Shown piece after piece: positions 27,805 to 30,550 of a DNA stretch of 35,242 nt. The notes beneath the pieces were generated by a model. The model did not search any database and had not been told where the DNA came from. It saw only the letters and a program-made list of their open reading frames with translations. Within the stretch, counting starts at the first letter, position 1. Each line of letters starts with the position of its first letter. This stretch comes from an uncultured Chloroflexota bacterium (GTDB taxonomy: Bacteria > Chloroflexota > Chloroflexia > Thermomicrobiales > CFX8), in assembly GCA_937870985.1 (NCBI GenBank), contig CALMXF010000234.1:1-35242 (forward strand). The letters run 5' to 3'. A program made the translations under genes and the position numbers.

Positions 27805-28494
27805 TCACGGTTCCTCGCGCATCGTAATGATGGCGGCCAAGACCCCGGCAATCGTCCCACCCAGCCACATGATGGCGCCGCCAAGCTGCTGGTCCGCCAG
27901 CGGCGAGCGGCCACCGAACGACGCGGCAGCGTAATGCGGATAGAAGGCGTGGCCAGAAAAGGTTAGCACCGCGGCCAGCAACCCGGACGCGAGCATGCTG
28001 ATCGTCAGATACAGCACGCGCTGCCCGTTCGCTTTCAGATACCCGAGGCTCATGTTGTCATCGACGAGTGGACGCCAGAAGAGAACGAACGCCCCGATGA
28101 AGAGCATGTGCTCGACCGCGTGAATCCTTCCATTGGACAATTGAGCGTTGTAGATCGCAGGCACATGCCAGAACCAGAGCGCGCCCGACGACAGTATGAG
28201 TGCCGGCGCTGGCCGGGCCAGCGCGTTCAGCCCACTGACAATTCGAGACGATGACCAGGCTCGAAACAGAAGCGGCCATGCGATCGCGATCAGCGGCGCC
28301 GCGACGTTCATCAAGATCATATGCTGCAGCATGTGGGAAGAGAACGAACGATCGACAGCCGTATCGACGGGCGGCGAATTCATGATCAGAACGACGGCGA
28401 TTCCGCCGATCAGAGCAATCCACTCCCGTGGCCGCGTGTCGCGGCGCGCGATACGCGCCGCGACCTGCACCTCCGGATCGGTCCTCGTCATCAT
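27805..28494 (-). CDS. ctaG: Cytochrome c oxidase assembly factor CtaG (caa3_CtaG type)
   Basis: The 229-residue membrane protein has about six or seven membrane segments and the family's histidine-rich motifs FSSHMLQHMILMNVAAP and HAVEHMLFIGAFVLFWRPL. The Bacillus CtaG is needed for caa3 oxidase formation, apparently for the copper site. ATG 28494 overlaps the stop of subunit I as ATGA; the open frame further upstream (to 28632) is inside subunit I. It is the last gene of the operon. Confidence 0.9.
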   Translation of the reverse strand: MMTRTDPEVQVAARIARRDTRPREWIALIGGIAVVLIMNSPPVDTAVDRSFSSHMLQHMILMNVAAPLIAIAWPLLFRAWSSSRIVSGLNALARPAPALILSSGALWFWHVPAIYNAQLSNGRIHAVEHMLFIGAFVLFWRPLVDDNMSLGYLKANGQRVLYLTISMLASGLLAAVLTFSGHAFYPHYAAASFGGRSPLADQQLGGAIMWLGGTIAGVLAAIITMREEP

Positions 28495-29993
28495 GGCGTT
28501 TGTCGGGTCTCCGCGGAGCTGATCGCCTGCCAGGCCCGCCCGATCCCACGAGACATGTCGGCCATCAGCCAGAGGAGGCTGATCCCGATCAGCACCACAA
28601 ATGGGACCGCGATCTCCGCGTAGATCTTCCACCCGGAGAGATAGACCGCGTAGCGACGGGGCACGCTATCCGCACCCGCGAAGAAGAACATGAGCACGAA
28701 CCCGACGCCGCCGACACCGTAGAGCCAGGCAGCGATCTTCGAGCTCGCCCATTCGTGGACGTCGCCCAGGTCGCCGATCAGATAATAGAGGTACGCCCAG
28801 ACGAAGCTGGTGACTCCGAGCAGATAGTACGTATGGAAGTGCCCCGGCACCCAGAGTGTGTTGTGCATGACGTTATTCGCCGGAATCGCAGCATCGATCA
28901 CCGCCGCTATTCCGCCGAGTACCCACCCCCAGAAGCCTGTCACGATCAAGATCGACGGCACAGACCAACGCATCCCGCTGCGATAGATATGCGACAGGCT
29001 ACCGATGATCGTGATCAGCAGCACCTCAGGCACGATCGACCAGGAGGCGACCTGTCCGAGAATCTGCAGACCGATCGGCTGCGAAAAGTCCTGGTAGAGA
29101 TGGTGGGAGATCGGAGTCATCACAAGCACAATCGTCAGGTTCCAGGCAAGCACGATGAGCTTCGACGTGTGCCCACCACGTCCGGTGAAGATCGGGATAA
29201 GCGCATACACCACCCCGACTGCGAGATAGATCGTCAAGTTGGCAACCGCATGGCCGAAGAACATCAGGAAGTTCTTTGAGTAGAGCTTATTGATAGGCGC
29301 GATCCAGCCTGCCGCATCTGCAAGCAGAGGCAACACAACAGCAGCCCCGACGAGCCCGGTGATCATCCCGACGATCGAGACCGCCATCGCAGCCAGCTCG
29401 ACCGGTTGCGGCACGCGCAGGTCAGCGGCGGCAGGGCCGCGCGAAAACAGGTATCGCCAGCCGAGTGCCGTTCCGATGCCACCGTACTTGCGCCGGAGCG
29501 TGAGGAACACATGGAGACAGTAGATAGCGAATCCGAGCCCGATGCACAACGCGCCGATGTACATCATCGCGCCCGCCCACACGTCCCAGGTTCTCCCGCT
29601 GAACGGGAGTGGGTCGAGCACCGTCCATGCGCCGGCGAAACGGCCGATCAGCACCGCATAGAGCAGGAAGGCAACGCTCAGTGAATAGACGAAGTAGGCT
29701 GCCCACAACCAGCGAACACTCAGCTTCACCGATCGGCTCAGAGCGGCGGCCATCGCGCCCATCGCGGCCTGCAACATCCCGGCAACCATCCCAGTGCCGT
29801 GAATGGTCATGATCCGATAGAACCAGTCGGGTGAGAGGACATACCATCCTGCATGGTGCAGACGCATCAGCAACCCAAGCAGACCCATGAAGAGGAATAT
29901 GACGAAACCGCTCAGCATATATATCAGGGCAACCCGGAGTACTGCTCGGTCCGTCTGGCTGTACGCCGGGGATTCAAGCGGACGTGCATTCAC
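28491..29993 (-). CDS. Heme-copper oxidoreductase subunit I lacking the active-site tyrosine (possible nitric-oxide reductase)
   Basis: The 500-residue membrane protein has about twelve helices and all six histidines of the superfamily: His65 (TIHGTG) and His387 for the low-spin heme, His385 (GHFH) for the active-site heme, and His248, His297 and His298 for the active-site metal. It resembles B-type (ba3-like) oxidases in MHNTLWVPGHFH. In those enzymes helix VI reads HPxxY; here it is His248-A-V-A-Asn252. The helix VII tyrosine of cbb3 enzymes is also not seen (TSKLIVLAW). cNOR has Glu at the +4 position. The GTG at 29993 has AAGGAG 9 nt upstream. Operon: subunit II-subunit I-ctaG. Confidence 0.92.
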   Translation of the reverse strand: MNARPLESPAYSQTDRAVLRVALIYMLSGFVIFLFMGLLGLLMRLHHAGWYVLSPDWFYRIMTIHGTGMVAGMLQAAMGAMAAALSRSVKLSVRWLWAAYFVYSLSVAFLLYAVLIGRFAGAWTVLDPLPFSGRTWDVWAGAMMYIGALCIGLGFAIYCLHVFLTLRRKYGGIGTALGWRYLFSRGPAAADLRVPQPVELAAMAVSIVGMITGLVGAAVVLPLLADAAGWIAPINKLYSKNFLMFFGHAVANLTIYLAVGVVYALIPIFTGRGGHTSKLIVLAWNLTIVLVMTPISHHLYQDFSQPIGLQILGQVASWSIVPEVLLITIIGSLSHIYRSGMRWSVPSILIVTGFWGWVLGGIAAVIDAAIPANNVMHNTLWVPGHFHTYYLLGVTSFVWAYLYYLIGDLGDVHEWASSKIAAWLYGVGGVGFVLMFFFAGADSVPRRYAVYLSGWKIYAEIAVPFVVLIGISLLWLMADMSRGIGRAWQAISSAETRQTP

Positions 29994-30025
29994 AGCGCCT
30001 GGCTCCTTCGTGTCTTCGATCGCGG

Positions 30026-30550
30026 CTAGACGATGGTGAGCACGGCGACCATGATCTGGTGCCATATGCCACAGTACTCCAGGCAGCGAACCGTGTACGT
30101 GCCGGGCTTGTCGAACTCGAAGATGAGCTTGTTCGTGTAACCCGGCATCACTTGCGCCTGCGTCAGCAACACGCCGTCCGGACTGTAGATCGCGAAGTTG
30201 TGATTGACATCAACCGTCGTGAGCTCAAACTCGATCCGGGTGTTGGCAGGGAGCTGTTTCTCACCGATATCCCAGGCCCACTGGACGGCAGAGACCTTGA
30301 CGGTCATCTCGGGCTGGCCGAGGGTTCGCCCGCGGACACTAGGGTATGGCATCCAGTACATGGAAACCGCCAGACCGACCAGCAACACCACGCCGATCGG
30401 GAAGACGAGACGTTTCCGCAGCATTGCGGTCTTCGCATTGATCGCTGGCTCCGGCGCGACCCGCCCAACGCTGAAGACGATCGCTAACCAGATGGCGGTC
30501 CAGATCGCGCCGAGAATAAGGAACAAGTACAGAAGATTCTGTTGAAGCAT
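30026..30550 (-). CDS. Heme-copper oxidoreductase subunit II with CuA centre
   Basis: The 174-residue protein has two membrane helices (about 7-28 and 49-66) and an outside cupredoxin domain. The binuclear CuA ligands are complete: His117 (DVNHNF), Cys156, Glu158, Cys160, His164 and Met167 (CLEYCGIWHQIM). It should receive electrons from cytochrome c or a blue copper protein. ATG 30550 was chosen because the first helix begins within seven residues; a GTG or ATG further up to 30598 would add a charged stretch. It lies 32 nt upstream of subunit I, with no subunit III gene visible. Confidence 0.92.
   Translation of the reverse strand: MLQQNLLYLFLILGAIWTAIWLAIVFSVGRVAPEPAINAKTAMLRKRLVFPIGVVLLVGLAVSMYWMPYPSVRGRTLGQPEMTVKVSAVQWAWDIGEKQLPANTRIEFELTTVDVNHNFAIYSPDGVLLTQAQVMPGYTNKLIFEFDKPGTYTVRCLEYCGIWHQIMVAVLTIV

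Follow-up and report, generated by a model that had tools for sequence, protein, structure and literature searches.

The three minus-strand genes at positions 27805-30550 of the window (the whole analysed stretch of 35,242 nucleotides) encode a CuA-linked heme-copper enzyme and a copper assembly factor. Taken as a whole, this operon is best explained as a CuA nitric oxide (NO) reductase of the sNOR family, and we regard this explanation as probable. sNOR is defined by an Asn at the position of the catalytic Tyr (PMC8756737 Table A4). The window enzyme belongs to this already published family, and the chemistry of its Asn site is not unprecedented. The initial annotation proposed a CuA-linked NO reductase (NOR), possibly of a described family; this proposal is supported by the phylogeny, the residue signature, a predicted 12-helix model and the literature. 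What may be new is a subclade in which a different copper-assembly gene adjoins sNOR.

Organization of the operon

The gene order on the minus strand is subunit II, subunit I and ctaG. The NorS-like subunit II (30026-30550, 174 aa; alignment A2) matches PF00116, and its match to TIGR02866 (E=2e-19) is below the cut-off. It contains two N-terminal hydrophobic segments, as read from the sequence, and a cupredoxin domain. The NorY-like subunit I (28491-29993, 500 aa) matches PF00115 (E=1.5e-44) and was analysed in the ba3/aa3 and the A1/A3 alignments. Its start is likely the GTG at 29993, which has AAGGAG upstream and gives 500 residues numbered as in the initial annotation. The alternative ATG at 30065, chosen as the automatic ORF start, results in a 40-base overlap with subunit II. 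The start of ctaG (27805-28494; PF09678, E=1.4e-42) and the stop of subunit I share an ATGA overlap (sequence 28440-28560), indicating that the two genes are probably translationally coupled. No SCO/SenC gene was found within the window, where ctaG is present instead. The NCBIfam cytochrome oxidase matches were all below the cut-off, and the family therefore cannot be named from them.

Active-site residues and structure model

All six metal-ligand histidines of subunit I (H65, H248, H297, H298, H385 and H387) are present, as first proposed; they are invariant in seven near relatives and essentially invariant in the 87 aligned family members. The CuA ligands of subunit II (H117, C156, E158, C160, H164 and M167) are also complete and conserved, and the earlier description of an intact CuA subunit II accompanied by CtaG was borne out.

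The residue at +4 from His248 in helix VI is Asn252 (codon 29238-29240, minus strand, counted from the GTG start at 29993). In the phmmer (HMMER) search against PDB, it aligned with the cross-linking Tyr of Thermus thermophilus ba3 and Paracoccus aa3, pairing the window segment FFGHAVANLTIY with GHPIVYFW and GHPEVYII, respectively, which agrees with the placement made in the initial annotation. The A- and B-type oxygen reductases in our sequence set have Tyr at this +4 position, and an A- or B-type identity was rejected on this ground. Asn252 was kept in 87/87 aligned members (window included), while the neighbouring positions 249-251 vary freely, indicating that Asn252 is not there by chance. 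A C-type (cbb3) identity was likewise rejected. In the two CcoN proteins examined, the helix VII Tyr of cbb3 enzymes precedes the HH pair by six residues; the window residue there is Val291, so the position indeed appears empty, as had been suspected from the sequence.

The AlphaFold model of subunit I, made from alignment A3, had a pTM of 0.90 and 12 transmembrane (TM) helices. The top Foldseek matches of the model were heme-copper subunits I, including ba3 (3s8f) at a TM-score of 0.78. Two further tyrosines of helix VI, Tyr256 and Tyr263, are invariant across the 87 aligned members, and Tyr263 corresponded in the alignment to the K-channel residue Tyr248 of ba3. Tyr256 lies eight residues from His248, equivalent to two helical turns or ~12 angstrom along the axis. 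By this spacing Tyr256 is too distant for a cross-link, and no other conserved Tyr is placed to form one. A Pro322-Glu323 pair was observed only in the window subunit I and its nearest relative (L012), with position 323 occupied by Pro in every other aligned member. Glu323, in helix VIII, may be relevant to proton transfer.

Phylogeny of the Asn family

To gather relatives, we searched 61 whole genomes, nearly all from the order of the host, scanned named genomes for further loci (80 in number) and searched plasmids. The resulting 87 aligned members include the window; a small number of loci turned up by two of these routes and so enter this total twice. A maximum-likelihood tree was built from 41 of the 87 members together with Gln enzymes and with Tyr enzymes of the A and B types, and without Bacillus bNOR and Bacillus sNOR sequences; from a metagenome-assembled genome labelled 'Bacillota' (L022), only that genome's own small phylum was reached. 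All Asn enzymes in the tree formed one clade (bootstrap/SH-aLRT 100/100), to which no Tyr enzyme (A or B type) and no Gln enzyme belonged. The Asn family spans many phyla, and a CuA subunit II gene adjoins subunit I in nearly all aligned members. The homologue of Ruegeria pomeroyi DSS-3 falls inside the Asn clade, placing the window enzyme outside the oxygen reductases and within the sNOR clade. Silicibacter is the older name of the genus Ruegeria. The published sNOR holders include Silicibacter (PMC8756737 Table A4), and the identity of that entry with the R. pomeroyi gene is assumed here.

Two other heme-copper subunits I, L143 (G066:C17, 514 aa) and L144 (G070:C11, 489 aa), were sister to sNOR in the tree. 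In both, Glu occupies the Tyr position (AHNLMEAM) and the low-spin heme histidine is replaced by Met (GHSMT/AHTMT vs HFH). A CuA-domain match adjoins L144. To our knowledge, a Glu site together with Met at this heme-ligand position is not a feature of any described family. In addition, L148 (G065:C372), a CcoN-like subunit I with a CcoO-like gene behind it, carries Ser (FTSVWTGQHH) at the helix VII cross-link position, which is Tyr in two other CcoN proteins.

The megaplasmid of Thermomicrobium roseum DSM 5159 (L129 7429-11223) carries a homologue of 48% identity, with genes for a formate/nitrite transporter and CtaG behind it. Its locus tags are TRD_RS11245 and TRD_RS11250, and that of the CtaG gene is TRD_RS11260. 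The homologue (WP_012643266.1) is publicly annotated as a cbb3-type cytochrome oxidase. Public annotation gives sNOR-type enzymes the name cytochrome oxidase, so that reduction of NO and release of N2O can go unnoticed in Chloroflexota, Thermomicrobiota and Gemmatimonadota. T. roseum is a cultured thermophile with a near homologue and could yield a purified sNOR. Points of interest are the wrong name given to the enzyme, its cultured thermophilic relative and the chaperone swap.

A ctaG-linked subclade

The window enzyme falls in a subclade (support 100/99) whose members come from Chloroflexota, Thermomicrobiota, Gemmatimonadota and a small number of other groups. The enzyme has ctaG as its direct neighbour or no more than ~2 kb away in 17/18 loci of this subclade, and SCO/SenC was found in none of the 18. 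Among the other sNOR loci, SCO was detected in 39/70 and ctaG in 0/70. Given that 31/70 of these other loci also have no detected SCO, SCO/SenC is a variant rather than a defining trait of sNOR. Because CuB is served by factors of the CtaG/Cox11 type and CuA by SCO/SenC, the sNOR clades appear to depend on distinct copper chaperones, each dedicated to its own clade. No published description of this ctaG/SCO split was found in a literature search that lay outside the main NOR-family survey (PNAS 2024).

Denitrification genes in the host and its relatives

The host genome (order Thermomicrobiales; 89% complete, 447 contigs) contains nirK, which encodes a copper nitrite reductase with an N-terminal cupredoxin and adjoins a Crp/Fnr-type regulator gene, and a nosZ-nosD-nosFY-nosL cluster (the regulator and nosD/FY/L named from their translations). 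Four PF00115 matches were found in the host: an A-type oxidase (L001), the window enzyme, a Gln-type eNOR-like enzyme (L002) and a ligand-poor COX1-like protein (L004). NorB was not among these four matches in the 89% complete genome. The Gln-type enzyme (L002/L150, C33) has Gln at +4 (GHGAQQ) and its own CuA subunit II and CtaG. Since L002 is also a candidate NOR, the window enzyme need not be the main NOR of the host. L004 (C157) is a membrane protein near a DUF2249-like gene; similar proteins occur at L156 (G062:C77) near NirK and a DUF542/Ric-like gene, and both loci are possible NO-response modules. In another genome (L016/L142, G065:C290), sNOR and a Gln-type enzyme are adjacent in divergent orientation.

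Within Thermomicrobiales, nosZ was present in 7/7 genomes with the enzyme vs 16/54 without it (p=5.6e-4; the genomes are not independent). In genera g17 and g21, the sole species with the enzyme is the sole species with nosZ. Four genomes (G062, G063, G067 and G069) combine NirK-like, NosZ and sNOR proteins, and their PF00115 matches contain no second NOR-like enzyme. In a 400-genome sample of the phylum, nosZ occurred in 4/9 carriers vs 24/391 others (p=0.002), all four being Thermomicrobiales; it was found in 0/5 of the sampled carriers outside the order, and nirK was not enriched (3/9 carriers vs 103/391). A global gene-content link with denitrification was therefore rejected, and the nosZ association is counted as supporting evidence only.

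Proposed reaction and alternative explanations

From the residues, fold, family and operon described above, we infer a route for substrate, electrons, protons and copper. The window enzyme likely reduces NO. Electrons would enter from a periplasmic donor, either cytochrome c or a small cupredoxin, at the CuA of subunit II and would pass through the low-spin heme (H65/H387) to the high-spin heme (H385) and CuB (H248, H297 and H298), where two NO would be converted to N2O and H2O. In oxygen reductases, the Tyr supplies an extra electron and a proton. The NO reaction takes two electrons and cleaves no O-O bond, so the Tyr would be dispensable and Asn252 could stand in its place. Protons would probably travel along helix VI, past the invariant Tyr256 and Tyr263, and CuB would probably be delivered by CtaG.

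The same chemistry may serve detoxification, with the enzyme clearing NO that comes from NirK or from neighbouring cells while the Gln-type L002 respires. This is a variant of the sNOR explanation and not exclusive with it. The host genome encodes two NOR-like enzymes, and some carriers have no nosZ or no nirK. An Rrf2-family regulator lies beside the R. pomeroyi homologue; Rrf2 is the family of the NO sensor NsrR. However, electron entry through CuA and the nosZ association in the order point to respiration, and we consider a detoxifying role possible but somewhat unlikely.

The main rival is a high-affinity oxygen reductase without the cross-linked Tyr, in which another residue (e.g. Tyr256) or none would act as the electron and proton donor. 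The Nitrosomonas europaea homologue is up-regulated under O2 limitation and was placed with the B-type oxidases, and its authors proposed O2 reduction (PMC6967387). The invariance of Tyr256 in the family and the several carriers in the phylum without nosZ are also in line with this rival. Nevertheless, the oxygen reductases in our sequence set have a Tyr either at +4 (A and B type) or in helix VII (the two CcoN proteins), and this family has neither. In addition, the helical spacing puts Tyr256 out of cross-linking reach of His248, and, with L001, the host is already equipped with a canonical A-type oxidase. O2 reduction thus appears improbable. Still less credence goes to a narrower form of it, in which the CtaG-linked clade would be a functionally distinct O2-reducing (or dual O2/NO) subfamily whose site is capable of four-electron chemistry without a cross-linked Tyr and whose donor path would be formed by the invariant helix VI residues Asn252, Tyr256 and Tyr263. 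Finally, a decayed or mis-assembled gene, with the Tyr-to-Asn change as a loss of function or a sequencing change, is refuted for practical purposes by the presence of Asn throughout an 87-member family of many phyla with intact frames and all ligands kept, and nothing was found in its favour beyond the fragmentation of the assembly into 447 contigs.

Comparison with known systems

The biochemically characterised NORs are cNOR, qNOR, bNOR and eNOR, and sNOR is a proposed NOR (PMC11388526). cNOR and qNOR have Glu at the site (PMC8756737) and NorC/heme c or a quinol domain, whereas the window enzyme has Asn252 and a subunit II of the CuA type; this identity was rejected. The ba3 (B-type) oxygen reductase shares with the window enzyme the fold, the metal ligands, CuA and the Tyr248 that aligns with Tyr263, but it has the cross-linked Tyr and falls in a separate clade. 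eNOR is similar in its CuA subunit II and altered Tyr position, and it occurs in Chloroflexi (PMC8756737). However, its site residue is Gln, and the Gln enzymes, including L002, group with the B-type oxidases in a different clade from the window enzyme; an eNOR identity was thus rejected.

The CuANOR of Bacillus azotoformans (CuANOR type I, now bNOR) is a characterised NO reductase (PMC11388526) and, like the window enzyme, has Asn at the same position and a CuA subunit II. Compared by description, it differs in its 13 TM helices, larger subunit I, single TM segment in subunit II and SenC neighbour (PMC3475470). In the 'qCuANOR type II' of Bacillus, the site is Asn, and subunits I and II are described with 12 and two TM helices, respectively (PMC3475470). 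The closest counterparts of the window enzyme are this type (Bacillus/Geobacillus) and sNOR (NorSY; Nitrosomonas, Silicibacter/Ruegeria and Methylomirabilis), which share with it the Asn, the CuA subunit II, the six histidines, a 12-helix subunit I of ~490-500 aa and a subunit II of ~172-174 aa with two TM segments. The identity with proteobacterial sNOR members is ~35-38%. The window operon has ctaG, whereas its sNOR counterparts have SCO/SenC and a small membrane ORF adjacent.
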